From positions 124,001 to 188,000 of the forward strand of contig NZ_LDPY01000002.1 of assembly GCF_001038505.1 (NCBI RefSeq): a DNA stretch of 64,000 nucleotides, read 5' to 3'. Position 1 is the first letter of the stretch. Each line of letters starts with the position of its first letter. The notes below the pieces were generated by a model. It had not been told where the DNA came from and searched no databases. It saw only the letters and a program-made list of their open reading frames with translations. The translations under genes and the position numbers were made by a program. Positions 21,013 to 43,194 of this stretch are shown in pieces. The DNA is from Puniceibacterium sp. IMCC21224. Its GTDB lineage: Bacteria; Pseudomonadota; Alphaproteobacteria; Rhodobacterales; Rhodobacteraceae.

Positions 21013-21924
21013 TTACTGCGTCAGTTCGGGTCGCGCCGGGCGTTTCGCAATCCCCAGTTTCAGGACAATTCCGCCGCTCAGCACGATCAGCAGGCAGCCA
21101 AGACCGTCCAGAACATCCGGCAACTCGGCCAGAAAGATGTATCCGATCAGCACCGCCCAGATGATTCGCGCATAATCCAGCGCGCCGATCAGCATCGAGG
21201 ATGACACACGATACGCCACCGTTGTACAGGTGTGCACGGCCAGCGCGATCATGGCGAGCATCACCAACCAGACCCATTCCCCTGGCTGCGGCACAGTCAT
21301 CATCGGCGCGGCAGCCGCGCCGTAAACCAACGCTCCCCCCAGGCTGAAATAAAACAGTACCGCGTAATTCGTGCTGCGCGCGGGCATTCGCCGCACGGCA
21401 AGGTTCATCCCCGCCGCTGTCACAGACCCCAGCAACACCACCGCTGAATCGAGTCCAATCCCGCTGGAATCGGGTCGCAACACGATCAAAGTGCCGCCAA
21501 AACCGACCAATAGTGCCACCCAGCCCAGCGGCTTAACCTTTTCGCCAAAGAGGAGGCGGGCAAAAATCAGTGCAAAGATCGGCGTGGTGAAATTGATCGC
21601 CGTCACCGTGACCAAAGGCAGCGTCCGCAGAGCGTAGTAGAAACACGCCATCGTAAAGATCGCAAAGCTGGCATGGATCACATGCGCCTTGATGTCCGCG
21701 GCTTTGACGGCGCGAATGTTATCGTAGAAAAACAGCAGCGGCAGCAGCAGACCCAGCGTGATCCACGACCGCATGGCCAGCATTTCCAGCGTACCGACTT
21801 CCAGCGCCGCCAGCTGTTTGATCACGACCCCCATAAAGGGGATCGTCAGCGTATTGAGCAGCATCGCCAGCACACCGAGCATCGGGCGTGCTGCGATAAT
21901 TCCCGACGTTCCAGAGATGCTCAA
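21013..21924 (-). CDS. EamA/DMT superfamily transporter
   Basis: A 303-residue, ten-helix drug/metabolite transporter. Two EamA repeats are visible: GVVIKQLAALEVGTLEMLAMRS to FTTPIFALIFARLLFGEKVKPLGWVALLVGF in the first half, and VLLGSVTAAGMNLAVRRM to LDYARIIWAVLIGYIFLAELPD in the second. The frame starts with TTG at 21924, overlapping the stop of the small-subunit gene (TTGA); the first in-frame ATG is at 21882 but has no ribosome site. It is the last gene of the long minus-strand block and could export a metabolite or serve as an alternative importer; the family gives no substrate. Confidence 0.85.
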   Translation of the reverse strand: MSISGTSGIIAARPMLGVLAMLLNTLTIPFMGVVIKQLAALEVGTLEMLAMRSWITLGLLLPLLFFYDNIRAVKAADIKAHVIHASFAIFTMACFYYALRTLPLVTVTAINFTTPIFALIFARLLFGEKVKPLGWVALLVGFGGTLIVLRPDSSGIGLDSAVVLLGSVTAAGMNLAVRRMPARSTNYAVLFYFSLGGALVYGAAAAPMMTVPQPGEWVWLVMLAMIALAVHTCTTVAYRVSSSMLIGALDYARIIWAVLIGYIFLAELPDVLDGLGCLLIVLSGGIVLKLGIAKRPARPELTQ

Positions 21925-22346
21925 TCGACCTGCCGCCAGATCGGCCCCCGCGCCTTGACAGCGTCCAGCAGGCTTTCGTCAAATGGTTCGAGAGTATAGC
22001 CCAGAGGTTGCGGTGGGCGGTTCTCGTAGCCGCTGAGACGTTCGATCACGTCGCGTATGGCGGGGTTGGTATAGTAGGCGTTGTATGCGGCGGTGACCAC
22101 GGCGTCAAAACGCTCGGGCATGTTGGTCTCGATCTCGCGCAGGATGTCTTCGCGCGGGGCGGCGTCCAGACCGGAAAACCCGTCCGGCAAGGCGCCAAGA
22201 ACGGTATCAAGCGCCTCGGCCCCACCCGGCAGATCGGCGGCAAGTTCGGTCATTCGCGCCGCGAGTCCCTGCGCCCCGGCAGCGGGCCAATCTGTGCCAT
22301 CGCCGGGCAACAATGTGTCTAGCAGGGCGGTCAGCGGGTCGGTCAT
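21921..22346 (-). CDS. gluconate 2-dehydrogenase subunit 3-like small subunit
   Basis: A 141-residue protein whose N-terminal block TALLDTLLPGDGTDWPAAGA and helical remainder resemble the gluconate 2-dehydrogenase subunit 3 / FAD-glucose dehydrogenase gamma-subunit family. It overlaps the GMC oxidoreductase gene upstream by ATGA, the normal arrangement of this pair, and probably forms a complex with it. Family members usually carry a Tat signal that carries both subunits to the periplasm; here the protein starts directly with the mature-like sequence and no twin arginine is seen, so the complex may stay in the cytoplasm. No cytochrome c subunit gene is in the window. Confidence 0.7.
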   Translation of the reverse strand: MTDPLTALLDTLLPGDGTDWPAAGAQGLAARMTELAADLPGGAEALDTVLGALPDGFSGLDAAPREDILREIETNMPERFDAVVTAAYNAYYTNPAIRDVIERLSGYENRPPQPLGYTLEPFDESLLDAVKARGPIWRQVD

Positions 22347-23920
22347 GCGATGGCCTTTTTCGGGGCGCGCAGATCGCGCATTGCAGTTGCCGCGCGCAGG
22401 GCCAGCGCCTGCAATGTCGGTGTCGGATTGACCGCAGCAGCGGTCACAAAGGTCGATGCATCGACGATCGACAGGTTTCCCAGGCCATAAACACGGCCCC
22501 ATTCGTCGGTAACGCCCTGCGCATCATCCACCCCCATGCGCGCCGTGCCCATCAGATGGAAGCCAGCGTTGCGGGTCAGAGGATTGACCGCGATGTCACG
22601 CGCCCCTGCGCCACGCAGCGCTTCAGAGGCGCGCTGGATGCCAAAGTCCAGCATCTTGCGGCTGTTGTCGCCGACGCGGTAAATCATCTGGGGCACCGGC
22701 AAACCGAACCGATCCCGCCGGGTGTCGTGCAACGCGATACGGTTATGTTCTTCGGGCAAGTCATCGCAAGTCACGGTCAGCGAAAGACTGCGCCCGAAAC
22801 GCGCATCAAAGGTCTGAGCATGACCCCGCCCCCAGGGCAGTCGCAGGCCATACCCACCCAGCGCTGTCGTCAACGGCCCCTGCCCACGCAGCGCCTGAAG
22901 CTGAAAACCGCCGGTAAAACCGCGGCCCGGGTCGCTTTCATAAAATTCCTGACATACCATCGCCGAGGCAAACGGCCCCCTCCAGCTCTGGACATTGTCG
23001 TCAAAGATCCCGGTCACAATCGCCGTCGGATGCAGCATCAGCCCGCGCCCGAACAGCGGGTGATCCAGCACGCCGCCCAGCAGTCGTGCATTGCCAAGCG
23101 CATTGCCTGCCAACACCACCTCACCGCAGGACAGCGTTTTGGTGCCCTCTGCATCGACATAGCGCAGGCCCGTTATGTCGCGCCCGTTGCGCGCAAATTT
23201 CAGCCCGGTCACCACCGCGCCATGGCGTATTTCGACCCCTCGGGCCTGAGCGGCCTCCAGATAGGCGACATCGGCGCTGGCCCGCGCGTGACGCGGGCAG
23301 CCAACCCCGCAGGGTCCACAATTGTTGCACGCGGCCCGACCCGGTCGCGCGCTGCTGAGGATCGCTGCATCAGACGGCCACCAATGCCATCCCAGCCGGT
23401 CAAAGGCTGCCGCCAGCCGTTCCGTCGCCGCACACAGTGGCAGGGGTGGCGATGGTCGCTTGGCACGTGGTGGATTGCCTGGATCACCGGCAAGGCCGGA
23501 CACGCCCATCATCTGATCGTTCAGATCATAGAAAGCCTCAAGTTCGTCGTAGGTCACTGGCCAGTCCGCCGCGACGTGATCGAGACTGTTCCGGCGGAAA
23601 TCCGATGGACGAAATCGCGGGAAATGCGCGCCCCAGCGAATGGTGCTGCCGCCAACGGCATTAAAGATCGCCGGCTTGATCGCGCTTTCGCCATCATCCA
23701 CCGGGTAATCCGCAGGTCCCCGCCGCACGTTGGGATTTGCGTTGTAGTTGCGCTGCAACGCCAATTCCCAATCGGGCGACAGCGACGGAGCATTCCGCTG
23801 GTCGACAAAGCTGCCAGCCTCAAGCACCACAACCCGCAGGTCTGGGGCTGCCACTGCCCAGGCAAACGCCAGCCCGGCAGCCCCTGCGCCGACAATCGCG
23901 ATGTCGGCGATGTCGGTCAT
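22343..23920 (-). CDS. GMC oxidoreductase with C-x5-C-x3-C Fe-S motif (copy 1)
   Basis: A 525-residue FAD enzyme. FAD binding is at IAIVGAGAAGLAFA (8-20), VGGSTIRWG is the second GMC signature region, and the active-site His is in GFHLMGTARMG near residue 470 with Asn in AVNPTPTLQ as partner. CNNCGPCGVGCPRHA places Cys at 198, 201, 204 and 208; the spacing 198/204/208 equals the [3Fe-4S] ligands of FAD-dependent glucose dehydrogenase. It probably oxidises an alcohol or sugar-type hydroxyl and passes electrons out through the cluster. It overlaps the small-subunit gene downstream and the CMD gene upstream. Copy 2 at 33788 is a clear paralogue. Confidence 0.9.
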   Translation of the reverse strand: MTDIADIAIVGAGAAGLAFAWAVAAPDLRVVVLEAGSFVDQRNAPSLSPDWELALQRNYNANPNVRRGPADYPVDDGESAIKPAIFNAVGGSTIRWGAHFPRFRPSDFRRNSLDHVAADWPVTYDELEAFYDLNDQMMGVSGLAGDPGNPPRAKRPSPPLPLCAATERLAAAFDRLGWHWWPSDAAILSSARPGRAACNNCGPCGVGCPRHARASADVAYLEAAQARGVEIRHGAVVTGLKFARNGRDITGLRYVDAEGTKTLSCGEVVLAGNALGNARLLGGVLDHPLFGRGLMLHPTAIVTGIFDDNVQSWRGPFASAMVCQEFYESDPGRGFTGGFQLQALRGQGPLTTALGGYGLRLPWGRGHAQTFDARFGRSLSLTVTCDDLPEEHNRIALHDTRRDRFGLPVPQMIYRVGDNSRKMLDFGIQRASEALRGAGARDIAVNPLTRNAGFHLMGTARMGVDDAQGVTDEWGRVYGLGNLSIVDASTFVTAAAVNPTPTLQALALRAATAMRDLRAPKKAIA

Positions 23921-24333
23921 GTGTTCACAGACTCGTCCGGCACCTCAAGATCGACCCGACCATTGCCCGATTTCATCTTGTTGAAGGTGTGGCATGATGC
24001 CTCGAACGCCGGAATCCCGGCCGGCAGCGCCGCCATAAATGCAGCCTCGTAGACCTCTTTCCAGGTTGCACCGTTCTGCATCGCGCGGATCGCGGCCCAT
24101 TCAACGCCCTCACCGTCGCCCTTGACGGCAGTGGTCACACCCACCAGCACCAGGAACCGCGTCTTGAGGTCCATGGGCCGCCCGTCTTCGGGGCCAAACA
24201 GTGTGTAAGAGGCAAGATCGCCATACCGGCGCAGCATTTGCGGATCCAGCTCGGCCAGATAGTCATGCACCGGCAGCGTATAACCGCGCACGCTGCGAAT
24301 TTTGTCGAGCTCGTCTTTTCCTTCGGGGGTCAT
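23917..24333 (-). CDS. carboxymuconolactone decarboxylase family protein (single domain)
   Basis: A 138-residue CMD/AhpD-fold protein. MDLKTRFLVLVGVTTAVKG, EWAAIRAMQNGATWKEVYEAAFMAALPAGIPAFE is the family's paired-helix core. The CxxC of peroxidase-type AhpD proteins is absent, so a redox role is unlikely; members without it act as decarboxylases or lactonases or are unknown. An AAGGA ribosome site precedes ATG 24333. It overlaps the GMC gene by ATGA and follows the flavoprotein gene after 27 bases, so the three are co-expressed. Confidence 0.82.
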   Translation of the reverse strand: MTPEGKDELDKIRSVRGYTLPVHDYLAELDPQMLRRYGDLASYTLFGPEDGRPMDLKTRFLVLVGVTTAVKGDGEGVEWAAIRAMQNGATWKEVYEAAFMAALPAGIPAFEASCHTFNKMKSGNGRVDLEVPDESVNT

Positions 24334-24360
24334 CTCAGGTCCTTTTGCTTCAGAGAATTG

Positions 24361-26343
24361 TCAGATTTTGCGGGCGGCAAGTTCGCCTTCCTTGATGGCG
24401 TCATTGACCCGGCGGGCCGACATGGCGTCACCGATCAGATGGGCGTCAACGCTGTCGCCTAGCGCGTGGAACAATGCGTCATTGGCGGAACCACCCTGCA
24501 CCATCACAACGATGTCGATATTGTCCAGCGTCTCGGTTTCGCCGGTAAAGAGGTCGCGCATCGTGACGCTGTCGGCGGTGATTTGTGTCAGTTCACGATC
24601 AACGTGGAAGGTCACACCGGCGCGGCGCAACATGCCATGCACCTTGCCCCAATCGCGCGACGCACCGAGGTCGGGAGACGGTTGACCCAGTTGTGTTACA
24701 AAGAACACCCGCGCGCCGCGCTGCGCCAGATATTCAGCCGTGACAGCGCCCTGGCGTCCGCCCATGGTGTCAAACACCACCACACGTTTGCCAATCTCAG
24801 GGTCGCTTTCCAGCAATTGAGTGTAGGCCATGACATGCGGCAGATCCGCGCCGGGCAGCGGAGCGCCGGCCCATTTTTCGGGGCGCAGCATGGTCCAGCC
24901 ATGCCGCAACCCGGTCGATCCGGTGGCAATGATCACCGACTCGAACCCGGCCAGATCCGTTTCGGTTGCGGTGGTGTTCAGCCGGATATCGACAGTCTCA
25001 TCACCCAATCGCGCCTCGAGCCAGTCGACGATGCCCACCAGTTCGGTGCGGCTGTCGGCCTTGGCCCACCAGCGCACCTGCCCGCCAAGGCGCGCGCGGG
25101 ATTCGAACAGCGTCACCGCATGTCCGCGCCGCGCCAGCGTCCAAGCGGCCCGCATCCCGCCGGGCCCGCCACCAACCACCGCCACCTTGCGTGGCGTCGC
25201 GGCGGCGTCCAGCGACTCTTCGTCCAGCTCAAGCTCGCGACCCGCTGACGGGTTGTGAATGCAGCCGATCGGCGCCTGAGCAAAAATTGTCGACATGCAC
25301 CAATTTGCGCCGACGCAGGGTCGAATCTTGTCCGCATTGCCCGACAGCGCCTTTTCGCCCCAGCGCGCATCTGACACCAGCCCACGCGCCATGCCGACAA
25401 AATCCAGCTTGCCGTCGGCCAGATACCCCTCGGCTTCGTTCGGGTCGACGATGCGCCCGACGCCAACCACAGGGATCTTCAGCCGCGCCTTGACCGTCGC
25501 GGTGGCATCCAGTTGAAAGCCATGTTTTTCCGGCGCCGTCGGATAGATCAGCATCCGGTTGATATAGGTCCCGTGTGACAGCGAGATATAGTCGATCAAC
25601 CCGCTCGCTTCGAACTCGGCGGCCAGATCGGCCCAGTCATTGGGTCGCAAACCGCCTTCGTGGCCGTCATCGGAATTCAGCCGCATGCCCATGATCATGT
25701 CCGGGCCCAGCTCTTCGCGGCAGGCCTGAAGGATCTCCATTACGATCCGCATACGATCTTCAAGCGAGCCGCCATAAGCGTCATCGCGCAGGTTGGTCGC
25801 AGGCGACAGAAACTGGTTGAGCAGATAACCATGCGACATGCCGTGGACTTCGACCCCGTCCAGCCCGCCCATGCGCGAGTGCCGTGCCGACAGGCGGTAG
25901 CCTTCAATGATCTCGGCGATATCCTTGCCGGTCATCACGTGCGGCATTTCGCGGTATACGCCACAGGGGATGGCCGAGGGTGCCCAGACCGGCAAACCGT
26001 TGGTCACGCCATTGGTCTGGCGCCCGCGATGCCACGGCTGCGACAACAGCAATGTGCCGTGTTCATGCACCGCTTCGGCCAGCTTGGCGTATTCCGGCAC
26101 CATGCGGGGATCAAAGGCGAACGCCTTGCCCTTGTAGGGCTGTGTCGTCGGGTGGCTCGCCATTGCCTCCATAGTGATGACGGCGGCACCGCCCTTGGCG
26201 CGCGCGACATAATAGGCGATATGCGCCTCGGTAAATAGGTGATCCTTGACCAACAGCGTTGCATGCGCTGTCATCCAGATCCGGTTTCGGGCGGTTTTCG
26301 GGCCCAGCTGCATCGGGCTGCCAAGAAGCGGATAGGCGGTCAT
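24361..26343 (-). CDS. NADH:flavin oxidoreductase, TMADH/FadH/DgcA-like (copy 1)
   Basis: A 660-residue flavoprotein of three parts. Residues 1-340 are an FMN TIM barrel of old-yellow-enzyme type with HGYLLNQFLSPATN and AYGGSLEDRMR; then the Fe-S segment; then an NAD(P)/FAD Rossmann pair starting at VAVVGGGPGGMRAAW near 390. The Fe-S segment RPCVGANWC...GC has Cys343, Cys349 and Cys361, but Ala346 where TMADH and FadH have the second Cys. Family members reduce enoyl bonds or demethylate amines. It is coupled by ATGA to the peptide-type ABC importer upstream and followed by CMD and GMC genes. Two further copies lie at 36223 and 41230. Confidence 0.9.
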   Translation of the reverse strand: MTAYPLLGSPMQLGPKTARNRIWMTAHATLLVKDHLFTEAHIAYYVARAKGGAAVITMEAMASHPTTQPYKGKAFAFDPRMVPEYAKLAEAVHEHGTLLLSQPWHRGRQTNGVTNGLPVWAPSAIPCGVYREMPHVMTGKDIAEIIEGYRLSARHSRMGGLDGVEVHGMSHGYLLNQFLSPATNLRDDAYGGSLEDRMRIVMEILQACREELGPDMIMGMRLNSDDGHEGGLRPNDWADLAAEFEASGLIDYISLSHGTYINRMLIYPTAPEKHGFQLDATATVKARLKIPVVGVGRIVDPNEAEGYLADGKLDFVGMARGLVSDARWGEKALSGNADKIRPCVGANWCMSTIFAQAPIGCIHNPSAGRELELDEESLDAAATPRKVAVVGGGPGGMRAAWTLARRGHAVTLFESRARLGGQVRWWAKADSRTELVGIVDWLEARLGDETVDIRLNTTATETDLAGFESVIIATGSTGLRHGWTMLRPEKWAGAPLPGADLPHVMAYTQLLESDPEIGKRVVVFDTMGGRQGAVTAEYLAQRGARVFFVTQLGQPSPDLGASRDWGKVHGMLRRAGVTFHVDRELTQITADSVTMRDLFTGETETLDNIDIVVMVQGGSANDALFHALGDSVDAHLIGDAMSARRVNDAIKEGELAARKI

Positions 26344-27326
26344 GCGATCTCTTTCTGCTGAAGTTTATTGCCGCCGTCAGGAATGCGCAGACAGCGCGCC
26401 TCTTGTCCGGTGGGCACCTGAAGGACGGGGGGGGCCTCGCTGCGGCACCGGTCGATGGCAACGGGGCAGCGGGTGTGGAATTTGCATCCCGATGGCAGCG
26501 CAATCGGCGACGGCACTTCACCCTCTAGCACGTGGCGCGTGACTTTGATCGCGGGGTCGGCAGGCAGATGCGCCGACAGCAGCGCCTGCGTATAGGGGTG
26601 TGATGGCGTCTCGAACAATGCCTCGGCGGCACCTTGTTCGACCACCTCACCCAGATACAGCACGGCGATCCGGTGGCTGATCATCCGAACCGTCCCCAGA
26701 TCGTGGCTTATGAACAGCATCGCCGCCTGGGTTTCCGTGCGCAGTTCGGCCAACAGTTCGAGGATCCCGGCCCGCACTGACAAATCGAGCGAGCTTGTCG
26801 GTTCGTCCAGCACGATCAGCTTGGGATTGGTTGCGATGGCGCGGGCGATACAGACCCGCTGCAACTGTCCGCCGGACAGGTTCGCAGGCGTCCGGTTCAG
26901 CAACGCCGTGCTCAGATTCACCCGCCGCGCCAGCGTTTCGGTCCGGTCCTCACGTTCGGACCGTGACATCGGCATGTGCAGCTTGATCGGTTCAGCAATC
27001 AGATCGCGGATACGCATGCGCGGATTCAGTGCGCTCCACGGGTCCTGAAACACCATCTGCATGTCGCGGCGCAACGGCCGCACCTGGCCTTTGGGCAGTT
27101 TGGTGATGTCCTGACCGTTGAATTCGATACTGCCTTCAGTTGGCTCTGACAGGCGCAAGATCACCCGCCCCAGCGTCGATTTACCCGACCCGGATTCACC
27201 GACCATCCCCAGCGTTTCGCCCGGAGCGATGGTCAGATTGACATTGTTGACGGCGTTGACAAACCGCCCTTTTCCAACCGGAAAGCGTTTGCACAGACCG
27301 CGAATGTTCAGCACTGGCTGGGTCAT
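26340..27326 (-). CDS. dppF: peptide/nickel-type ABC transporter ATP-binding protein (DppF/OppF)
   Basis: A 328-residue ATPase with Walker A GESGSGKST at 43-51, Q-loop in MVFQDPWSALNPRM, signature NLSGGQLQRV, Walker B LIVLDEPTSSLD and the C-terminal oligopeptide-transporter domain ending in PSGCKFHTRCPVAIDRC. The start ATG 27326 overlaps the stop of the DppD-type gene. It is the last transporter subunit before the flavoprotein gene, with which it also overlaps. Such importers take up di- or oligopeptides, but many members carry sugars, opines, glycosides or other compounds. Confidence 0.93.
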   Translation of the reverse strand: MTQPVLNIRGLCKRFPVGKGRFVNAVNNVNLTIAPGETLGMVGESGSGKSTLGRVILRLSEPTEGSIEFNGQDITKLPKGQVRPLRRDMQMVFQDPWSALNPRMRIRDLIAEPIKLHMPMSRSEREDRTETLARRVNLSTALLNRTPANLSGGQLQRVCIARAIATNPKLIVLDEPTSSLDLSVRAGILELLAELRTETQAAMLFISHDLGTVRMISHRIAVLYLGEVVEQGAAEALFETPSHPYTQALLSAHLPADPAIKVTRHVLEGEVPSPIALPSGCKFHTRCPVAIDRCRSEAPPVLQVPTGQEARCLRIPDGGNKLQQKEIA

Positions 27327-28327
27327 ACGCGCACCTGTTCGGCTGGTTCGGATTTGAGGGTTCCGGCAAAATGGCACAGCCCGAAATGGCCCGGTGTCAC
27401 TTCGATATTGGGCACCGACATACGGCATATCTCGGTTGCATAGGCGCAGCGCGATTGCAGCGCACAGCCCGGCGGAAGGTTGTAAAGATCGGGGGGTTGC
27501 CCACCCAGAGCCTTGGCCCCGCCCATCTGAAACCGCTCGGGGGTCGCGCCAATCAGGTTGCGGGTGTAAGGGTGCACCGGCGTGGCAAAGACGTCCGCGA
27601 CGGGGCCGCTTTCGACGATGCTGCCGCCGAACATCACGGCGATTTCGTCACAGAAATGCGCTACTACACCCAGATCGTGGGTAATGATCATCGTCGCCAT
27701 GTCGAACCGTGTCACCAGATCGCGCAGCAGATCCAGGATCTGCGCCTGAACCGTCACGTCCAGCCCGGTCGTCGGCTCGTCCGCGATCAGCAGCTTGGGT
27801 GCGTTCATCAGCGCCATCGCCAGCAGCACACGCTGCGCCATCCCGCCGGACAGCTCGTGTGGCCACGACCGGGCGCGGCTGGTCGGATCGGGGATGCCGA
27901 CGGCCTCCATCATCTCAAGCGCGCGTTTGCGCGACGCCTCGCGCGACCCGCGGCTGTGGATCTGGTGCAACCGCACCAACTGGTCCCCCACACGGGTCAG
28001 CGGATCCAGTGAGGTGCGCGGATTCTGCACCACCATGGCAATCCCGGCCCCGCGAATGCGGTTCAGTTCGGCGGATGGCATCGTGGTCAGTTCGCGCCCA
28101 TCGAACCGAACCGATCCGCTGACGATTTTTGCCGGCGGGCGCAACAGACCTACCACCGATTGCGCGGTCAGTGATTTGCCGGCCCCGGTCTCTCCTACGA
28201 TGCCCAGAATGCGCCCGGCCTCGAGCGAAAAAGAGACGCCGTTCAGCGCCTTGGCCACGCGCTCGCGGTTGTCGATATCGCGTGAGATGAAATGCGTGTG
28301 CAGATCCTCAACCACCAAAAGCGTCAT
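27323..28327 (-). CDS. dppD: peptide/nickel-type ABC transporter ATP-binding protein (DppD/OppD)
   Basis: A 334-residue ATPase. Walker A GETGAGKSL is at 45-53, the Q-loop follows AMVVQNPRTSLDP, the signature is HELSGGMAQRV, Walker B is LLIADEPTTGLD and the C-terminal domain has PPGCALQSRCAYATEIC. The IADEPTTGLD form is that of the DppD branch as opposed to the VLDEPTSSLD of DppF. It overlaps both neighbours by ATGA and forms a heterodimeric ATPase with the DppF-type protein. Confidence 0.93.
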   Translation of the reverse strand: MTLLVVEDLHTHFISRDIDNRERVAKALNGVSFSLEAGRILGIVGETGAGKSLTAQSVVGLLRPPAKIVSGSVRFDGRELTTMPSAELNRIRGAGIAMVVQNPRTSLDPLTRVGDQLVRLHQIHSRGSREASRKRALEMMEAVGIPDPTSRARSWPHELSGGMAQRVLLAMALMNAPKLLIADEPTTGLDVTVQAQILDLLRDLVTRFDMATMIITHDLGVVAHFCDEIAVMFGGSIVESGPVADVFATPVHPYTRNLIGATPERFQMGGAKALGGQPPDLYNLPPGCALQSRCAYATEICRMSVPNIEVTPGHFGLCHFAGTLKSEPAEQVRV

Positions 28328-29220
28328 GCCGCTGTCCTCCGTCTTGGGTCCGTTAGATCCCGCAGCCCGTCACCAAAAAGATTGAGCCCAAACACCAGCA
28401 GGATCAGCGCCAGACCGGGGTACAGCGCCACCCACCACTGGCCCGAGATCATGAATTCCGCGCCCTGCCGGATCATCGCGCCCCATTCCGGTGTCGGCGC
28501 CTGAATGCCCACCCCAAGAAAGGCCAGCGTTGCCGAAATCCGTACCGCCCAGGCGGCGCGCACCGCAGTCTGGGCCATGGCGCCCTGAATGGCATTGGGC
28601 AGCAAATGAACGAACAGGATGCGCCACGTCGGATTGCCCGCAGCCACGGCGCTTTCGACAAAGTTGGAGGACCGCAGCGCCAACACTTCGGCGCGCACCA
28701 TCCGGGCAAAGACCGGACTGTCGAGCAGCCCCAGCACCAGGATTACGTTCAACAGCGACGGCCCCGTCGCCGCCACTACGGCCAGCGCCAGAATGATCGA
28801 CGGAAAGACCCGAAGCCCGTCGAAAAAGCGCATTAGCACTTCATCGAGCATGCCGCCGCGATACCCCGCAATCAGCCCGACCGGCAGACCGATCACCAGC
28901 GACAGCAGCACGGCCGGTATGGCGATGCCAAATCCGAACCGGGCACCGTAGATAACGCGGCTGAACACATCCATACCATTGCCGTCAGTGCCGAACCAAT
29001 GCAGCTCTGACGGAGCTTGCAACACCCGGTCGGTATAGGCCGCCACCGGATCATATGGCATGATCCAGGGGGCCAACAGCGCCAGAAACGCAAAGAACAG
29101 GATGATCAGCAGGCCAATCGCCGCCGTTGGACTAAGCCGGACGATACCGACGGTCCGGTTCCAGATTTTTGCGGCCCGGCTGCGGGCGGGCGTCGGGGCA
29201 TTTGCGCTCAGATGAGTCAT
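28324..29220 (-). CDS. dppC: peptide/nickel-type ABC transporter permease (DppC)
   Basis: A 298-residue permease. It begins with a polar segment of about 35 residues and one helix (AAIGLLIILFFAFLALLAPW), then the DppC-type periplasmic loop with LHWFGTDGNGMDVFSRVIYGAR, and the BPD core with GYRGGMLDEVLMRFFDGLRVFPSIILA and the EAA loop. ATG 29220 shares one base with the stop of the dppB-type gene (TGATG). Confidence 0.93.
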   Translation of the reverse strand: MTHLSANAPTPARSRAAKIWNRTVGIVRLSPTAAIGLLIILFFAFLALLAPWIMPYDPVAAYTDRVLQAPSELHWFGTDGNGMDVFSRVIYGARFGFGIAIPAVLLSLVIGLPVGLIAGYRGGMLDEVLMRFFDGLRVFPSIILALAVVAATGPSLLNVILVLGLLDSPVFARMVRAEVLALRSSNFVESAVAAGNPTWRILFVHLLPNAIQGAMAQTAVRAAWAVRISATLAFLGVGIQAPTPEWGAMIRQGAEFMISGQWWVALYPGLALILLVFGLNLFGDGLRDLTDPRRRTAA

Positions 29221-35495: not shown

Positions 35496-36218
35496 ATGAC
35501 CAAAGGAGCAGTTGCAGTCACAGGGGCCGCAGGCGGCATAGGCAGCGCCATCGCACGGCGGATCAGCGCCGACGCGCACGCGCCTCTCATCCTGTTGGAT
35601 CGGCCTGGTGCCGCGCTTGATGCCATCGCAGCTGAAACAGGCGGTCTGGCGTTTGGCATCGAACTGACAGACCGCGCGTCTGTTGCCGCAGCCTTTGCCG
35701 CAGCGCGTCAGGCGGTGCCCAGGTTGTATGGTCTCGTTCTTGCTGCCGGGGTCGTGGACAATGGCAAGCTCTCTGATCTGGATGCTGACCGCTGGGACGA
35801 CATTCTGGCGGTAAATCTGACCGGGCCATTTCTGTGCTGTCTCGCGGCGCGCGACTGGATCGCGGATGGTGGGCGGATCGTAACACTGGGCTCACTCGCC
35901 GGACGCACCGGCGGCGTGATCACCGGCACAGCCTATGCTGCCAGCAAGGGCGGGATCGAATCGCTGACAAAATCCATCGCGCAAGAGCTTGCCCCCCGCA
36001 ACATCACCGTTAATTGCGTCGCCCCCGGCGCGGTCGAAACCCCGATGCTGGCGGCGCACACACCCGAACGCAAGGCCGCGATGTCAGCGTCGACCCCGCT
36101 GAAACGCATGGGCCAGCCGCAAGAAATCGCCGCCGCCGTGTCTTATTTTTTGCACAGCGACGCCGGGTTCACCACCGGATCAGTTCTGGCGGTGAACGGC
36201 GGATTGAGGATGGATTGA
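35496..36218 (+). CDS. short-chain dehydrogenase/reductase (SDR)
   Basis: A 240-residue classical SDR. The cofactor motif TGAAGGIG is at residues 10-17, LAAGVVDNG replaces the usual NNAG, and the catalytic Ser, Tyr and Lys are in TLGSLAG and YAASKGG. VAPGAVETPM and the C-terminal VLAVNGGLRMD are typical. An acidic residue after the second strand (LLDRPG) suggests NAD(H). ATG 35496 has AAAGGA upstream. It is followed four bases later by the flavoprotein gene. Probable role: oxidation or reduction of a hydroxyl/keto group on the shared substrate. Confidence 0.92.
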   Translation: MTKGAVAVTGAAGGIGSAIARRISADAHAPLILLDRPGAALDAIAAETGGLAFGIELTDRASVAAAFAAARQAVPRLYGLVLAAGVVDNGKLSDLDADRWDDILAVNLTGPFLCCLAARDWIADGGRIVTLGSLAGRTGGVITGTAYAASKGGIESLTKSIAQELAPRNITVNCVAPGAVETPMLAAHTPERKAAMSASTPLKRMGQPQEIAAAVSYFLHSDAGFTTGSVLAVNGGLRMD

Positions 36219-36222
36219 CGCC

Positions 36223-38193
36223 ATGGCACCGCACCCCCGGTATCCGCATGTCTTTACGCCGCTGACCATTGGAACAACGCAGGTCCGCAACCGGATCTTT
36301 ATGCCCGCTCACACCACCAACTACGGTGAAAACAACCTGCCGTCCGAACGGCACCTGGCCTATCATCGCGCGCGCGCCGCTGGTGGCGTCGGACTTAGCA
36401 TCTTTGAGGGCATCCGCGTGCATCGCTCCAGCCTGGGGCGGCAGCAGGGATTAAATGGCTTCGACCCTGCCTGCATCCCACGTTTTGCCCGGATTGCCGA
36501 TGCAGTGCGATCCGAAGGTGGCAGGTTGTTCGGCCAGATCATCCATCTGGGTCGTCATATCGACGGCAATTTTGCCCGCACCCCGGCTTGGTCTGCCTCG
36601 GACATTCCGTGGGCCGCCACAGCCCCACCGCCACATCCGATGACGGAAGAAGAAATCGCGCTGGTGGTGCAAGGCCACGCCGATGTGGCCGCCAATCTGA
36701 TCGACGCGGGGCTGGACGGGATCGAGCTGACGATGTCGCACGGCCACCTGCTACAACAGTTTCTGTCTCCTGCGTCAAACATGCGCGGGGATGCCTATGG
36801 TGGTTCGCTGGAAAATCGGATGCGGTTTCCGCTCGATACTTTGCGGGCGGTGCGGGCGCGGATAGGGCGGGAACGCACGCTGGGCATAAGGATCAGCGCC
36901 GATGAATATTTGCCCGGCGGGCTGACGCTGGACGACATGACGGCCATCGTCACGCAATTGGTCACTGCGGTGCAGGTCGATTTTGTGAATGTCTCGCATT
37001 CCGCCTATCACGGCAGCTACACCGTTTCGACCCAGATGGCTGACATGGCCTTTCGCATTCAGGACTTTCAACCGCTAACCACAGCGATTTCAACCGCGCT
37101 TGACGCAGTCGCGCACAAACCTGTGGTCATGACCGCCTGCCGCTATCAGCAGATCGCCCAGGCCGAAGAGATGCTGGCCACCGGCAGTGCTGACATGATC
37201 GGCATGGCGCGCGCGCATATCGCTGACCCGGAGATCGTAACCAAGGCGCGGATGGGCCGCGACGCAGAAACAACCCCGTGTATCGGCTGCAATCAGGGCT
37301 GTGCGGGGATGCTTGCGCTGAACCTCGCCATCACTTGTCTAAGCAACCCCGCCGCAGGGCGCGAAGCAGATTGGCCAACGCCCGCATTGGCCCGCACGGG
37401 CACCGTCAAGAATGTGCTGGTGATCGGCGGTGGACCGGGCGGAATGGAAGCCGCAGCAACTGCGGCTGAACTGGGTCACACAGTCACGCTGGTTGAACAA
37501 TCTGACAGCCTGGGTGGGGCACTGCTCTGGACGTCTCGCATGCCGCTGCGGGGGGAATTCGCCACGCTGCTGTCATCGCAGCAGGCCAGACTGCGGCGCG
37601 TCGGCGTGGCGGTCCACCTGAACACGGCGGCGGATGCGACAACGGGTCAGGGCTATGATGCGGTGATCCAGGCGATCGGCGCGGTGCCACGGGCGCAAAC
37701 ACTGACCTCCGGCGCGCAGATGCTGACGCTTGAGGCCGCGCTTGACGCACCCGATTTGCTGGGCCAGAACGTGACGTTGGTGGATACGCTCGGCACCTGG
37801 TCGGTGGTATCGGTCGCCGAATGGCTGGCGGATCTGGGCAAGACGGTGACGCTGGTCGCGCCGACCGGCAGCCCCGGCTGGACAATCAGCATGTATAGCG
37901 GATTTGCCCTGCGCCAGCGGCTGCGCAACAAACGCGTTCGTGTGATCCCCGGACAGGCGCTGGCGGATTTTGCCGATGGTATGGTGCAACTGACGGACCT
38001 GTCCCTTGGCGAAACAGGTGCCCGGTTTGCTGCTGACAGTGTGATCGCGCCCTTGCCGGCCCGCCCGATGGCGCTGACCCGGCAGGACGGGATGAACAAC
38101 CCATTAAACCGACTGGCAGTGGGTGACTGTCAATCGGCCCGCACAGCACTTGAGGCGATTTATGAGGGACACGAAGCCGCGCGCGACCTTTAG
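36223..38193 (+). CDS. NADH:flavin oxidoreductase, FadH/TMADH-like (copy 2)
   Basis: A 656-residue flavoprotein with the same three-part plan as copy 1: FMN barrel with HGHLLQQFLSPASN and AYGGSLENRMR, Fe-S segment, and a C-terminal dinucleotide-binding part from NVLVIGGGPGGMEAAA. Its Fe-S segment PCIGCNQGC...TC has all four ligands, Cys353, 356, 360 and 372, with the spacing of E. coli 2,4-dienoyl-CoA reductase. It should therefore transfer electrons from NAD(P)H through FAD and [4Fe-4S] to FMN to reduce a conjugated double bond. It follows the SDR on the plus strand and converges on the CMD genes with a 19-base gap. Confidence 0.92.
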   Translation: MAPHPRYPHVFTPLTIGTTQVRNRIFMPAHTTNYGENNLPSERHLAYHRARAAGGVGLSIFEGIRVHRSSLGRQQGLNGFDPACIPRFARIADAVRSEGGRLFGQIIHLGRHIDGNFARTPAWSASDIPWAATAPPPHPMTEEEIALVVQGHADVAANLIDAGLDGIELTMSHGHLLQQFLSPASNMRGDAYGGSLENRMRFPLDTLRAVRARIGRERTLGIRISADEYLPGGLTLDDMTAIVTQLVTAVQVDFVNVSHSAYHGSYTVSTQMADMAFRIQDFQPLTTAISTALDAVAHKPVVMTACRYQQIAQAEEMLATGSADMIGMARAHIADPEIVTKARMGRDAETTPCIGCNQGCAGMLALNLAITCLSNPAAGREADWPTPALARTGTVKNVLVIGGGPGGMEAAATAAELGHTVTLVEQSDSLGGALLWTSRMPLRGEFATLLSSQQARLRRVGVAVHLNTAADATTGQGYDAVIQAIGAVPRAQTLTSGAQMLTLEAALDAPDLLGQNVTLVDTLGTWSVVSVAEWLADLGKTVTLVAPTGSPGWTISMYSGFALRQRLRNKRVRVIPGQALADFADGMVQLTDLSLGETGARFAADSVIAPLPARPMALTRQDGMNNPLNRLAVGDCQSARTALEAIYEGHEAARDL

Positions 38194-38212
38194 CCCCAAA
38201 CCCAGCCCTGTC

Positions 38213-38947
38213 TTAGCCTGGTTCCTCGTCAAAGCCGGCAACCCGCGCCCCGTTCGCCGCACGAAACGCCCCCTGTCCGGGCATATCGCGCCAGACGGCG
38301 AAACGTTCCGACGGCGTCACCTCGCCCGCGACCATCAGGCCATGCCAAACCTCGCAGGCGTCAAGAAAGCAATTCACGCCACGCGGCCAAATCAGGTAGC
38401 TTAGCGCCTCGACCATCGCATCCTCGGCCAGTCCCTCGGCGTAGCACATCCGCAGATGATGGGCGACGCCGTCCCGATCGCCGCGCGCCGCCTGCACCGA
38501 AAGCAGCACAAGGCCTGCTAGTTCAACCGGCAGCGGCCCGCGCAAGGCGGCGATGCAGCGGTCATAGGCCGCAGTCGGGTCCAGCGCTGGCAGATGATCC
38601 GGAAAGCTGCGCGCCGCAAATCGAAACGCCGACAGCGATGCCGCCTGACCGGTCAGGGCGATCACGGCCTCGGCCTCGGCGTCGGTGCCGTCAGCCTGCC
38701 GGAACAGCTCAAGGTGGTGCGTGCCGACATGCTCTTCGACGGCGATGAGAATACCCAGCCAGACACATTCCCGTTCATGCGCGCTCAGCACCCGTGGCGC
38801 GACCGTCAGCGCGTTGTACATCTGCAGATATGCGTCGTGCAGTTCGGGCGCGCCGACCGCCAGCGCGCCGTGATGCGGCAGTAGAAATCCCCGCGCCGCC
38901 GCCAGCCGGTCCAGCCTGGCCCGCAAAGCCTGCGTTGGCTCAGTCAT
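38213..38947 (-). CDS. two-domain carboxymuconolactone-decarboxylase-like protein (copy A)
   Basis: A 244-residue, mostly helical protein. The first half has RGFLLPHHGALAV and LSAHERECVWLGILIAVEEHVGTHHLELF, the second has LAGLVLLSVQAARGDRDGVAHHLRMCYAEGLAEDAMVEALSY; both read like the CMD/AhpD core, so the protein appears to be a tandem of two CMD domains. No CxxC is present; HH pairs stand at equivalent places. It ends with VWRDMPGQGAFR, which matches IWANMPGQGGHG of the neighbouring copy B. The start overlaps the stop of copy B by 8 bases. It is the last gene of the operon that begins with the TRAP genes at 49117. Confidence 0.7.
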   Translation of the reverse strand: MTEPTQALRARLDRLAAARGFLLPHHGALAVGAPELHDAYLQMYNALTVAPRVLSAHERECVWLGILIAVEEHVGTHHLELFRQADGTDAEAEAVIALTGQAASLSAFRFAARSFPDHLPALDPTAAYDRCIAALRGPLPVELAGLVLLSVQAARGDRDGVAHHLRMCYAEGLAEDAMVEALSYLIWPRGVNCFLDACEVWHGLMVAGEVTPSERFAVWRDMPGQGAFRAANGARVAGFDEEPG

Positions 38948-39632
38948 CCGACCCGTGTCCGCCCTGTCCAGGCATGTTCGCCCAGATCCGAAACGCGTCC
39001 GAGGCAGGCAACTCCCCGGCGGCAATCATCTCTTTCCAGATACCGGCGGCAGTCACAAAATAGGGCACGCTGCCGGGAAACATGGTCAGCGAAATTGCCT
39101 CGGCCAGCTCGGCTTCGGGCACAGCCGCGGCATAGGCGTGATCCAGCTGCCAGCGCAGCCCATCCCATGCGCCGTTGCAGATCTGAATGGCGCAGGCCGT
39201 CAGATGGCACAGTCTGGGGCCGACCCCTTTGCCGGCGGCCAGAACCGCCCGGTTCCAGTCGGCACGAAAGTCAATATTGCCCAGATGTGCGGCCCAATCA
39301 TGCGCCGCAAAATGATAGGCGCGAAAACCGCAGACCGTCGCAGTCAGCGACACTGCCGCCCGGATCTCATCTTCGCTGCCGCCCGCCGCGCGGAACTTGG
39401 CAATGTGATGCGTCGCGATTTCCTCGTCCGTGGCAATCAGGATACCCAGCCAGACGAACTCGCGATCATGATGCGACAGCACGCGGTCATCCAGAGTCAT
39501 CGCGGTATAGACAGCATCATAGGCAGTCAGCAGCGCCGGGGCGGTCAGCGCCAGCAACCCGTGATGCGGCAGCAGGTATCCGCGTTTGTCACGCAGCGTT
39601 GCCAGCTTTGCGGTCAGGTCTTCGTCACTCAT
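38940..39632 (-). CDS. two-domain carboxymuconolactone-decarboxylase-like protein (copy B)
   Basis: A 230-residue paralogue of copy A. KRGYLLPHHGLLALTAP, LSHHDREFVWLGILIATDEEIATHHIAKF and the second-half LCHLTACAIQICNGAWDGLRWQLDHAYAAAVPEAELAEAI repeat the CMD pattern twice. The shared residues with copy A show a duplication followed by strong divergence, so the two may form a heteromer. Its start overlaps the GMC copy 3 stop by ATGA. The fold is reasonably supported; activity (decarboxylase, lactonase or hydrolase) is open. Confidence 0.7.
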   Translation of the reverse strand: MSDEDLTAKLATLRDKRGYLLPHHGLLALTAPALLTAYDAVYTAMTLDDRVLSHHDREFVWLGILIATDEEIATHHIAKFRAAGGSEDEIRAAVSLTATVCGFRAYHFAAHDWAAHLGNIDFRADWNRAVLAAGKGVGPRLCHLTACAIQICNGAWDGLRWQLDHAYAAAVPEAELAEAISLTMFPGSVPYFVTAAGIWKEMIAAGELPASDAFRIWANMPGQGGHGSDD

Positions 39633-41233
39633 GCCACCCCCTTGCGTGTGTCTGCATCAAGCGCCGCAATCACCAGATCGGCTGCATGCATACCGATCAT
39701 TGAGGTGGGCGCCTGTGTGTTGTTGCTGGTCAGCGTTGGCATCACCGAAGCATCGGCAATGCGCAGCCCGTCAATCCCGTGTACCTTCAGCGCGGCATCC
39801 GTGACGGCCAGAGCGTCATTGCCCATTCGACACGACCCGACCGGGTGAAAAACGGATTCAGCATTGGCCCGGATCCAGGTGTCCAGATCAGCATCAGATT
39901 GCACCCCTGCACTAGGCCGGATCTCAGGCCCGCGCCAGTTGTCAAACGCGCTCTGGGCAAAAATCTCGCGCAGCCGCCGGACCCCGGCGCGCAACACCGC
40001 GATGTCGCGCGGCGCGGTCAGGTATCCGCCGGTGATAGCGGGCGGAACTTTGGGATCATCACTCTGCAACCGGATCTGGCCACGGCTTTCGGGGCGCATC
40101 TGGTAGATATTGGCGAAGAACCCATGACCCTGCTGCGCCGTCGCCTTGCGAAACGGCACACGAACGGCAGCGGTCGACCGGCCGGGCAGAAAATGCGCCT
40201 GAAGATCGGGTGTATCCAACGCCGGATCAGAACGCAGGAACGCCCCCGCCTCAAGCGGAAAGCGCGCTGCGGGGCCAGTGCCGAACAGCATCGCCTGCCC
40301 CAACGCCAGCGCGGCGCGGTCGGCACGCAACAGATTGTGCAAGGTGACAGGGCGGGTGCAATCATGCTCGACCCGCACCAGAAGGTGATCCTGCACCCCC
40401 TGCCCCACGCCGGGCAGATCGTGGCACACCGCGATCCCGTGGTCATTCAGATGATCCGCCGGTCCAATCCCCGACAGCATCAACAGTTGGGGCGTGTTCA
40501 CCGTGCCGCAGCTTAATACCACTTCGCTGGCAGCGCGCGCGGTGATCCGCGCGGATCCTTGCGCCAGTTCCAACCCAACGGCGCGCCCGCCTTCGACCAG
40601 AACCCGCAGCGCGTGGGCCCCGGTCAGGATGCGCAGGTTTGGCCGGTCCCTGTGCGGCGCGAGCCAGGCGCTTGCCGCGCTGAGCCTGCGCCCCCCGGCG
40701 ATGGTGAAATCATAGCGGCCCATGCCCTCGGGTGAGGGACCGTTAAAATCTGTCGTGCGTGGATGGCCCGCCTGCACACCCGCATCCAGAAACGCCTGTG
40801 ACAGTGGATTGATGTCGGGGAAATCGCTCAGCTTTTGGTGCCCCTCGATCCGGAGAAACCGGGCCTGAACGTCGTCCCAGCCCCAACCGGGCAGCCCGCG
40901 TTGCGCCCAGCCATCGTAGTCCGAGGGCAGACCACGGGTCCAGACCATGCCGTTGATCGACGACGAACCGCCCAGCACCTTGCCGCGCGGCCAGAACAGG
41001 CGACGCCTGTCAAGGCCCGGCTCGGGTTCGGTGTGATAATACCAGTTGGCATACCGTCCGCGCAGCAAAATCCCGGTCATCAACGGCACCCGGAACAGCG
41101 GATTTCGGCCACGCCCGCCGGCCTCGATCAGCAGGACCTGCGCGTCGGTTTCCGCAGCCAGCCGCCCGGCGACCACCGCCCCGGCAGAGCCGGAGCCGAC
41201 CACGATCACATCCGCATGTATGTCACGGCTCAT
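39629..41233 (-). CDS. GMC oxidoreductase, choline dehydrogenase-like (copy 3)
   Basis: A 534-residue FAD enzyme of the alcohol/choline dehydrogenase branch. FAD binding VIVVGSGSAGAVVAGRL, the signature WPRGKVLGGSSSINGMVWTRG, LSCGTVNTPQLLMLSGIGP, the catalytic His in FHPVGSCRMG and Asn in TSNNTQAPTSMIG are all present. It lacks the Cys cluster of copies 1 and 2, so it belongs to a different GMC branch and must use another electron acceptor. The start overlaps the flavoprotein copy 3 stop. It should oxidise a primary or secondary alcohol in the pathway. Confidence 0.92.
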   Translation of the reverse strand: MSRDIHADVIVVGSGSAGAVVAGRLAAETDAQVLLIEAGGRGRNPLFRVPLMTGILLRGRYANWYYHTEPEPGLDRRRLFWPRGKVLGGSSSINGMVWTRGLPSDYDGWAQRGLPGWGWDDVQARFLRIEGHQKLSDFPDINPLSQAFLDAGVQAGHPRTTDFNGPSPEGMGRYDFTIAGGRRLSAASAWLAPHRDRPNLRILTGAHALRVLVEGGRAVGLELAQGSARITARAASEVVLSCGTVNTPQLLMLSGIGPADHLNDHGIAVCHDLPGVGQGVQDHLLVRVEHDCTRPVTLHNLLRADRAALALGQAMLFGTGPAARFPLEAGAFLRSDPALDTPDLQAHFLPGRSTAAVRVPFRKATAQQGHGFFANIYQMRPESRGQIRLQSDDPKVPPAITGGYLTAPRDIAVLRAGVRRLREIFAQSAFDNWRGPEIRPSAGVQSDADLDTWIRANAESVFHPVGSCRMGNDALAVTDAALKVHGIDGLRIADASVMPTLTSNNTQAPTSMIGMHAADLVIAALDADTRKGVA

Positions 41234-43194
41234 GCTGCTTTCCCTATGCTGCGCGCTGCGGCCTGGGCATCTTGCATGGCGTCGAACAGGGTGCGCGGCG
41301 CAACCGCGTCGCCGATGGTGCGGACCGCAAGGCCCACCTGTTCCAAGGCATCCTGAAATCCGGTTGGCGCTACGCCAGGCGCGGAATGCACGATACAATC
41401 AAATGGCCCAAGCGTGGTTTCACGACTGGTTAGGCTGTTGCGGCAGGTCAGCATAGTGTTGCTGGCCGATCGCGGCATCATTCCCAGATGGCGGATGACG
41501 CCCAGTTGCGCCAACCGTTCCAACGCCGTCATCCGACTATACAGCGATACCGACCACAGCGGAGCAGTCGACGCCTGTAGAATTTCGACCTGCGCACCGG
41601 CTTGCGCCAGCGTTTCGGCAACCGACAGGGTTGCCCACGACCCGGCCTCGTCCCAGAGCGCGACGCGCTGGCCTGACCAGCTATCCCGTGGTTGCGACAA
41701 CGCCATCTGCGGCGACAGCAGCGACGCATCAGCGAGATATCCGGCGTCGTGCTGCGCCCCGGTGGCCAGCAGAATGACGTCGGCGCCCGCGTCTCTGAGC
41801 GCCGCAACAGTCGCGTCACGGTTGATGCCGATCCGCACCCCGGCGCGGATCACCGCATCGCACAACCAGTCGCGCATCGCCCCGATATCGCCCCGCCCAT
41901 ACCCCGAAGCGCACAGCGCAAGTTTGCCACCCAGCGATCCGCTGCGTTCCCATATCGTGACATCGTGCCCGGCAAGGGCTGCGATGCGCGCCGCCTCCAT
42001 CCCAGCCGGGCCACCGCCGACCACCAATACACGGGACGTCAGGGCGGCTTTGGCGGGGGGATCGCTCCAATGCTGTTCCTTGCCGACACCGGGGTTCATC
42101 ATGCAGGAAATCGGCTGATGCGCCGCGATCTGTCCAATGCAGAAGTTATGCGCGACACAGGGACGTACCTCACCCTCGCGGCCAGCCAGACTCTTGGCGA
42201 TCAGATCGGGGTCGGCCATGTGGGCACGGTTCATCCCGACCATATCAATCTGTCCGCGCGCCAGCGTCTTCTCGGCCTCGGAGAGGGAGCGATAGCGGTT
42301 GGCAGTCAGCAGCGGCAGATTGCCAATTTCCGGGCGCAGCGCCTCGGTCAGGTCGCGGAACGGATGGCTGGGATGCGCCATATCCGCAACGTGATGCCCG
42401 ATGCTGGGCCACTGATACGCCGCAACTGATGCGTTCACAAATGCCAGACCCGGCAGCGCAGCGGCGGCACGGGTGATGATCCGATGCTCTTGTGGGCCAA
42501 CGGCGCCGGGCATCAGGTCATCGACACTGGTCCGTACGCCGACGGCAAGGCGCACACCAACGGCGTTCACCACAGCCCGCAGAACCTCAAGCGGAAAGCG
42601 CATGCGATTCTCAAGCGATCCGCCATACTCATCGTCACGCGTGTTGGCCGCAGGCGACAGGAACTGGTGCAGCAGATGGCCATGGCCCAGATGCACCTCG
42701 ATCCCCTCGAACCCTGCCGCGACGGCCAGTTCCGCAGTGCGGACATACGCATCGCGGACCTCAACCATCTCGGCGCGGGTCATTGCATGGGGCATCTCGC
42801 CACCCGCGACCCAAGGCACGGCGGATGGGCCCCAGGCGGGCAGGCGGTCGACCTCGTTCGGGCCGTGTCGTCCGGCGTGCGTGATCTGCACAAAGATACG
42901 CGCGCCGGGATTTCGCACTGCGTCTACGATCCGCCGCAACCCGTCCAGCGCGCGCGGGTCCGCACCGCTCAGCCCGCCGGCCCGCCCGAGCGACGTGGGA
43001 TGCACCCGCAAGGGTTCGACAAAGATCAGCCCGACGCCGGCCCGCGCCCGGGCGCGCAAATAGGCGACATGCGCCTCGGTTGGCAAAAAATCGCGGCCAA
43101 AGTTGGTGGTGTGCGCCGGCAGAAAGATCCGATTGCGGATTTCGACCCCGCCGATGGTCAGCGGGGTCATGACGCGGGCATAGCGGTCTGTCAT
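41230..43194 (-). CDS. NADH:flavin oxidoreductase, TMADH/FadH-like (copy 3)
   Basis: A 654-residue flavoprotein, closer to copy 2 than to copy 1 (FLPAHTTNFG, LRVHPTSLGRAGGL). It has HGHLLHQFLSPAAN, EYGGSLENRMR and the C-terminal VLVVGGGPAGMEAARIAA. The Fe-S segment RPCVAHNFC...SC gives Cys346, Cys352 and Cys364, with His349 in place of the second Cys. The cluster may thus have a His ligand or an open iron. ATGA overlaps link it to the small TIGR04076-like gene upstream and GMC copy 3 downstream. Confidence 0.9.
   Translation of the reverse strand: MTDRYARVMTPLTIGGVEIRNRIFLPAHTTNFGRDFLPTEAHVAYLRARARAGVGLIFVEPLRVHPTSLGRAGGLSGADPRALDGLRRIVDAVRNPGARIFVQITHAGRHGPNEVDRLPAWGPSAVPWVAGGEMPHAMTRAEMVEVRDAYVRTAELAVAAGFEGIEVHLGHGHLLHQFLSPAANTRDDEYGGSLENRMRFPLEVLRAVVNAVGVRLAVGVRTSVDDLMPGAVGPQEHRIITRAAAALPGLAFVNASVAAYQWPSIGHHVADMAHPSHPFRDLTEALRPEIGNLPLLTANRYRSLSEAEKTLARGQIDMVGMNRAHMADPDLIAKSLAGREGEVRPCVAHNFCIGQIAAHQPISCMMNPGVGKEQHWSDPPAKAALTSRVLVVGGGPAGMEAARIAALAGHDVTIWERSGSLGGKLALCASGYGRGDIGAMRDWLCDAVIRAGVRIGINRDATVAALRDAGADVILLATGAQHDAGYLADASLLSPQMALSQPRDSWSGQRVALWDEAGSWATLSVAETLAQAGAQVEILQASTAPLWSVSLYSRMTALERLAQLGVIRHLGMMPRSASNTMLTCRNSLTSRETTLGPFDCIVHSAPGVAPTGFQDALEQVGLAVRTIGDAVAPRTLFDAMQDAQAAARSIGKAA

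Follow-up and report, generated by a model that had tools for sequence, protein, structure and literature searches.

Three large flavoproteins, three GMC oxidoreductases and three CMD-like proteins lie close together in the genome of Puniceibacterium sp. IMCC21224, and the locus raises the question of whether they represent one module used repeatedly on a single substrate or separate systems placed side by side. The window, meaning here the whole stretch of 64,000 nucleotides that was analysed, covers positions 124001-188000 of contig C2 (NZ_LDPY01000002.1) in a 5.56 Mb genome of nine contigs. An earlier interpretation of the letters without database searches, hereafter the sequence-only reading, named three genes resembling FadH and trimethylamine dehydrogenase (TMADH), three GMC genes and three CMD-like genes, and Pfam confirms all nine where it placed them. 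The genes fall into two cassettes composed of known families; the pair is real and conserved, the cassettes adjoin tail to tail, 19 bases apart, and they are inherited separately. The preferred reading, to which we assign a probability of about 60%, comprises two neighbouring catabolic cassettes, each inherited on its own and both on a contig that bears RepC, with proposed uptake, enzyme and electron routes. The conserved co-occurrence with importers makes a catabolic locus the most likely interpretation.

The conservation of cassette A was followed in loci around relatives of its flavoprotein FadH2, 80 of 127 such loci being kept, and in 20 stretches of these 80 with an extended upstream side (FadH2 at least 56% identical in 19; 50% in L203, which has none of the cassette-A genes). 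The upstream flank was extended to about 20 kb because CMD1-GMC1 lies beyond 10 kb in full cassettes. Window genes were assigned to families by Pfam and NCBIfam profile matches. The features of cassette A, with the number of the 20 extended stretches that hold them, are as follows.

21.0-38.2 kb, cassette A: EamA, small subunit, GMC1, CMD1, FadH1, OppFDCB, SBP5, DUF2848, TauD, GMC2 and divergent SDR1-FadH2
21013..21924, minus strand, EamA-type transporter at the cassette end (Pfam EamA; 12/20, adjoining the small subunit in 11)
21921..22346, minus strand, small protein 3' of GMC1, a possible gamma-like subunit (sub-threshold Gluconate_2-dh3; the same 12/20 as GMC1)
22343..23920, minus strand, GMC1, Fe-S-type GMC dehydrogenase (Pfam, solved relatives, four invariant Cys; 12/20)
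23917..24333, minus strand, CMD1, single-domain CMD-family protein (Pfam via orthologues; 16/20)
24361..26343, minus strand, FadH1, flavoprotein with a three-cysteine Fe-S site (Oxidored_FMN and Pyr_redox_2, structure model; 15/20)
26340..30233, minus strand, OppF, OppD, OppC and OppB, four genes of a peptide-type ABC importer (Pfam; each 19/20)
30304..31878, minus strand, SBP5, an SBP_bac_5 substrate-binding protein (Pfam; best solved relatives heme-binding protein A and DppA; 19/20, at least 50% identical)
31929..32672, minus strand, DUF2848 protein (Pfam; 14/20)
32669..33769, minus strand, TauD/TfdA-type dioxygenase (Pfam; 13/20)
33788..35383, minus strand, GMC2, Fe-S-type GMC dehydrogenase (Pfam, four invariant Cys; 9/20)
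35475..36218, plus strand, SDR1, short-chain dehydrogenase divergent from GMC2 (Pfam; start chosen, the open reading frame opening at 35373; 8/20, counted on the upstream side only)
36223..38193, plus strand, FadH2, flavoprotein with a four-cysteine Fe-S site and HGH at the position of the FadH active-site Tyr loop (Oxidored_FMN and Pyr_redox_2)

The gene order of the window is kept in two Rhodobacteraceae stretches (L184, L185), in Roseibium (L186) and in a Tepidamorphaceae stretch (L190), and two stretches from alphaproteobacterial metagenome-assembled genomes (MAGs; L191, L192) display the same order without CMD1 and SDR1. Within the available flank, the SAR116 records L031 and L033 preserve the order from OppB or SBP5 to FadH2, again without SDR1, and eight loci (L026, L027, L030-L035) carry two or three extra genes between GMC2 and FadH2. 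The actinomycete Lentzea fradiae holds a reduced version comprising Opp, SDR, DUF2848, CMD1, FadH1, an SBP_5-type gene and a divergent FadH2-like gene. The cassette is not rigid: FadH1 is missing in 5 of the 20 extended stretches, and FadH1 relatives also occur without cassette-A neighbours (L151 and Rhodococcus USK10). The sequence-only reading had seen three recurrences of one module; since the first two share a conserved order around one peptide-type importer, they constitute a single cassette, cassette A, and the third is the core of cassette B. Its placement of importers in the same blocks is borne out by the persistent company of the Opp genes and SBP5.

Comparison with control loci supports the specificity of this association, for which the sequence-only reading had proposed a search within 10 kb and which at that distance holds for a minority of close relatives. 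When some 9-10 kb to either side is considered, GMC and CMD genes like those of the window co-occur in 4 of the 30 loci whose FadH2 is at least 56% identical, in none of the 50 with a more distant FadH2 (38-52%), and in none of the 20 control loci with a different FadH-type gene (four in the same genome, sixteen in other genomes). A GMC1/2-type gene was found in one control locus, CMD in none, and other cassette-A genes in none at the thresholds used. The 30 close loci, several of which end at contig ends, hold GMC1/2 in 15, CMD1 in 7, SBP5 in 27 and OppB in 26; of the 20 stretches with about 20 kb of upstream sequence, 10 hold both GMC1 and CMD1. Near the host the cassette is rare, and it looks horizontally acquired: a close FadH2 is absent among 4 genomes of the same genus and 55 of the same family (best match at most 37% identity), and in a sample of the class 3 of 288 further genomes carry FadH1, two of them (L150, L152) with Opp-CMD1 neighbours. 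The divergent GMC2-SDR1 gap contains one promoter-like site (minus strand, 35447-35418), which is given no weight because 0.8 such sites are expected by chance.

Cassette B comprises a different importer and its own set of enzymes.

38.2-52.2 kb, cassette B: CMD2, CMD3, GMC3, FadH3, SDR2, methyltransferase, TRAP importer and divergent FAD2
38213..38947, minus strand, CMD2, double-length CMD protein at the cassette end (Pfam)
38940..39632, minus strand, CMD3, double-length CMD protein (Pfam)
39629..41233, minus strand, GMC3, choline-dehydrogenase-type GMC (Pfam, PRK02106 match, solved relative)
41230..43194, minus strand, FadH3, flavoprotein with His in place of the second Fe-S Cys (Oxidored_FMN and Pyr_redox_2)
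43520..44047, minus strand, conserved 175-aa cassette-B protein (no Pfam or NCBIfam match; kept in L146-L149)
44044..44811, minus strand, SDR2 (Pfam)
44778..45857, minus strand, SAM-dependent methyltransferase with an N-terminal part of 170-190 aa (Pfam)
45909..46244, minus strand, 111-aa methyltransferase partner (no family above cut-off)
46257..49117, minus strand, DctP, DctM and DctQ, three genes of a TRAP importer, with DctP at 46257-47246 (Pfam)
49271..52187, plus strand, divergent FAD_binding_2 flavoprotein (FAD2), alpha/beta hydrolase and family-less 216-aa protein (Pfam; same neighbours in L146/L154 and L147)

In the family sample, 4 of the 393 genomes besides the host's encode an orthologue of FadH3 (59-68% identical); they belong to four other genera, and two of them are 87% and 70% complete. 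FadH3 adjoins GMC3 in all four; CMD3 accompanies it wherever the contig is long enough to show it (three cases), and the two longest contigs add CMD2, the methyltransferase with its small partner, the TRAP genes, FAD2, the hydrolase and the 216-aa gene. The provisional labels T4076 and EthD for the 175-aa and 216-aa proteins found no support in Pfam or NCBIfam and were dropped.

The methyltransferase and its small partner (44778-46244, minus strand) have counterparts elsewhere, a SAM methyltransferase with a family-less protein of 103-152 aa standing beside FadH2-type genes of Proteobacteria and Actinobacteria (L092, L096, L060, L066, L074); the small-protein clusters c22 and c33 are treated as one family from their first residues. 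In addition, cassette B (L146, L147) and the FadH2-like genes of rhizobial and other loci, such as L055, L058, L065 and L073, repeatedly have LeuC/LeuD-like (aconitase-family) pairs and a GntR regulator as neighbours.

The separate inheritance of the two cassettes emerges from searches in both directions. In the four genomes with a FadH3 orthologue, a FadH1 orthologue is absent (best matches 31-37%), as is a FadH2 orthologue (FadH3 itself matching at 39-40%, others at 31-35%), and the cassette-A binding protein was found in none at E 1e-60, in a search that had no positive control. Conversely, FadH3 at 50% identity or more was found in none of 29 genomes drawn from the 80 FadH2 loci, many of them draft MAGs (matches 36-47%); 25 of these hold cassette A or the reduced version of it, and the other four (L053, L065, L067, L091) a FadH2 relative only. 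Together with the separate importer in each cassette, these absences stand against a single pathway for a multiply oxygenated or polycyclic substrate, in which the cassettes would act in sequence and B would process later intermediates. The tail-to-tail arrangement speaks for such a pathway, and two further observations weigh against a full separation of the cassettes. First, among the matches listed (120 out of 3479, 4520 and 6676 for the three flavoproteins), relatives of FadH2 and FadH3 have an equal-sized longest contig in four cases (344,508, 58,832 and 29,728 bases, and Devosia with 6,482,095), the first size recurring for FadH1, which suggests that in these cases the two relatives share a contig. 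Second, a few loci (L025, L039, L047) have cassette-B-like genes in the vicinity of FadH2, in L047 on both sides of an importer and FadH2 core. On balance a single pathway is unlikely, and the proposal that one module is reused for one substrate does not survive; of the independent occurrence named beforehand as its refutation, the separation of the third module is found, and the first and second modules go together.

Local tandem duplication of one module is likewise ruled out. The three flavoproteins, mutually 34-41% identical, fall into three clades with 100/100 support each, and GMC3 belongs to another subfamily than GMC1 and GMC2; judged from the tree, the flavoproteins are old clades, not local duplicates.

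The predicted structure of FadH1 matches TMADH, histamine dehydrogenase (HisDH), NCR and 2,4-dienoyl-CoA reductase (DCR) over its whole length, and an OYE barrel, an Fe-S site and two Rossmann domains extend over the full length, the arrangement of the class formed by TMADH, HisDH and 6-hydroxypseudooxynicotine dehydrogenase (Pno). FadH1 shares with this class the whole-length fold and domain order, and the window flavoproteins likewise lack the NAD(P)H motif, with Asp in its place. From the alignments, they resemble the 6l6j enzyme in having no Cys at the position which we take to be that of covalent flavin attachment in the TMADH class. They differ from the class in their identity of 28-30% and in the three Fe-S cysteines of FadH1 and FadH3. 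The second dinucleotide domain opens without the motif GxGxx[GA] in 121/121 FadH1, 119/120 FadH2 and 117/120 FadH3 sequences; this domain is of Asp type, without GxGxxG, a criterion not specific to the TMADH class. As a special mark of FadH1-3 the missing motif was rejected, the pattern being matched in only 4 of 25 control paralogues.

Similar evidence bears on an alternative in which the flavoproteins act as NAD(P)H-dependent ene-reductases of the FadH/BaiCD type and saturate conjugated ketones or acids. Oxidored_FMN is their best Pfam family and BaiCD comes second in NCBIfam, sequence and fold matches extend to 2,4-dienoyl-CoA reductase and NCR, and FadH1 retains the Tyr of the active-site loop, presumably catalytic in FadH, in 121/121 sequences. 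E. coli FadH, itself a 2,4-dienoyl-CoA reductase, shares fold and domain order with FadH1, and its CxxCxxxC-x11-C is kept by FadH2; however, it carries GCGGIG in the NAD(P)H domain (1ps9), absent from the window proteins, whose near-universal lack of GxGxx[GA] argues against an NAD(P)H-dependent reductase, and the active-site loop differs in FadH2 and FadH3, where His replaces the Tyr. An ene-reductase role, including the earlier proposal of activity with NADH and enones, is thus doubtful. A gene for the alpha subunit of electron-transfer flavoprotein (ETF) is present in the genome, and the lack of an NAD(P)H motif, together with the likeness to trimethylamine, histamine and 6-hydroxypseudooxynicotine dehydrogenases, makes ETF the likelier external electron acceptor than NADH. 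Assays of such flavoproteins with NADH only would therefore be inadequate.

The best NCBIfam match of all three is the mycofactocin-system FadH/OYE oxidoreductase 2 (TIGR03997; 596, 544 and 485 bits against a cut-off of 793). This family is also of Asp type, and its member on a Streptomyces plasmid adjoins genes named mycofactocin-associated ETF subunits. A mycofactocin cluster was rejected, the scores lying below the TIGR03997 cut-off and no MftC above cut-off being found in the genome, with the MftC model the only one searched.

Studied members of the TMADH class hold a 4Fe-4S cluster, and the Fe-S site sets the window proteins apart from one another. FadH2 has the four-cysteine site of the class in 120/120 sequences, whereas FadH1 and the nearer FadH3 lack it; the description of all three as large Fe-S flavoproteins thus stands for the Oxidored_FMN and Pyr_redox_2 architecture, the complete site being confined to the gene at 36223. 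FadH1 carries Ala at the second Cys position in 121/121 sequences, its relatives in Rhodococcus USK10 and Lentzea having CVGANWC in common. In FadH3 the first, third and fourth cysteines are invariant (120/120), and the second position is Cys in 32 of 33 more distant sequences and variable in the 87 that are at least 52% identical, the window's included (His 40, Ser 21, Gly 13, Asn 11, Ala 2). Such drift would fit a ligand that is no longer needed.

A three-cysteine site unique to the locus was rejected: the second Cys is missing in 11 of the 25 FadH-type paralogues of the 20 control loci (read by eye where the pattern failed), so the trait is not special to the locus. C-x2-A/G/V-x2-C sites are seen in other FadH/TMADH-type proteins (L158, L160, L164, L166, L168, L169, L173-L177). 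The recurrent absence of one cysteine makes the cofactor question testable in the TMADH class; as leads, the missing cysteine and the probable link to ETF are the most useful that the locus offers. Tentatively, FadH1 and the nearer FadH3 might operate with a three-cysteine cluster, whether a native 3Fe-4S between FMN and ETF or a 4Fe-4S with an open iron, and form with FadH2 an undescribed, phylum-crossing catabolic pathway for an imported natural product; the TMADH/FadH superfamily would then have given up the fourth ligand on several occasions. This extension of the preferred reading is possible, with the odds against it. A native 3Fe-4S cluster beside FMN is described for glutamate synthase (PMC8097209).

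The GMC proteins fall into two types. GMC1 and GMC2, 48% identical, are of the Fe-S GMC type, with a conserved Cys cluster in the GMC fold whose four cysteines are invariant in 23/23 and 24/24 aligned sequences, respectively. The best solved relatives of GMC1 are the large subunits of FAD-glucose and fructose dehydrogenases, with which it shares a Cys-rich insert, although the Cys spacing differs and no cytochrome subunit gene was found among the window genes scanned. For the small protein encoded after GMC1, the best match, to Gluconate_2-dh3, is weak (E 0.077; 13.8 bits, cut-off 23.4), and one orthologue gives no such match. The label of alcohol oxidase is doubtful, GMC1 and GMC2 resembling Fe-S dehydrogenases. 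GMC3 is of choline-dehydrogenase type, with choline dehydrogenase as its best solved match and 560 bits to PRK02106 (cut-off 605), and its neighbours presumably differ from those of choline oxidation. CMD1 scores 22.9 bits against the PF02627 cut-off of 23.0, with two orthologues at 37.0 and 34.1; CMD2 (36.0) and CMD3 (43.7), a tandem pair 39% identical, are above the gathering cut-off. Several listed open reading frames are longer than the genes, GMC3 (39629-41398) probably starting at about 41233, CMD2 (38213-39025) at about 38947 and the small gene at about 22346.

From these components a catabolic direction, a substrate class and an order of steps can be proposed. In cassette A, a small, probably peptide-like or nitrogen-bearing compound would be imported by the peptide-type ABC importer and dismantled by two TMADH-class flavoproteins, FadH1 and FadH2; the Fe-S GMC dehydrogenases would convert alcohols to carbonyls, the SDR and the TauD-type hydroxylase would also act on the compound, and the CMD and DUF2848 proteins may serve C-C steps. 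In cassette B, an organic acid would enter through the TRAP importer and meet analogous enzymes, namely FadH3, GMC3, CMD2/3, SDR2, FAD2 and the hydrolase. In each flavoprotein, the Fe-S site would relay electrons between the FMN barrel and an outside acceptor, with ETF the most likely one. Methyltransferase, GMC and FadH genes also occur in secondary-metabolite clusters, and the methyltransferase with its small partner in cassette B and the EamA transporter in cassette A would suit biosynthesis; it is nonetheless very improbable, given importers with binding proteins in both cassettes, catabolic neighbours (thiolase, CoA transferases, TRAP) and no synthase or carrier protein among the window genes scanned. 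The search for a substrate among the relatives of SBP5 led nowhere, heme-, dipeptide- and nickel-binding proteins being alike related to this DppA-like protein. Cassette A is common to several alphaproteobacterial groups and, in reduced form, to at least one actinomycete, and its compound is named in no searchable paper; the binding protein offers a direct route to it. In agreement with the sequence-only reading, no described pathway with this gene set was found in the open-licence literature, which misses most subscription papers.

Regarding the replicon, contig C2 carries a RepC gene at 19812, and the longest contig given for the window's own protein in the protein listing has 441,716 bases, which makes a plasmid or chromid likely. 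The genome contains six RepC matches above cut-off on contigs C2, C3, C4, C5 and C7, pointing to several repABC-type replicons.

Two further blocks, both on the minus strand, flank the cassettes in the window: (i) 9032-20045, comprising an amidase, an arylmalonate-decarboxylase-like protein, a CoA transferase, an isochorismatase, two PEP-mutase-family proteins, an NMT1-type ABC importer and an acyl-CoA-synthetase-like protein with CoA-binding, Succ_CoA_lig and ATP-grasp domains; and (ii) 53162-63996, a further catabolic block with an Fe-ADH, a hydroxyisobutyrate-type dehydrogenase, an amidohydrolase, a Zn-ADH, a ChsH2-type OB protein, a thiolase, two CoA transferases and a TRAP importer.

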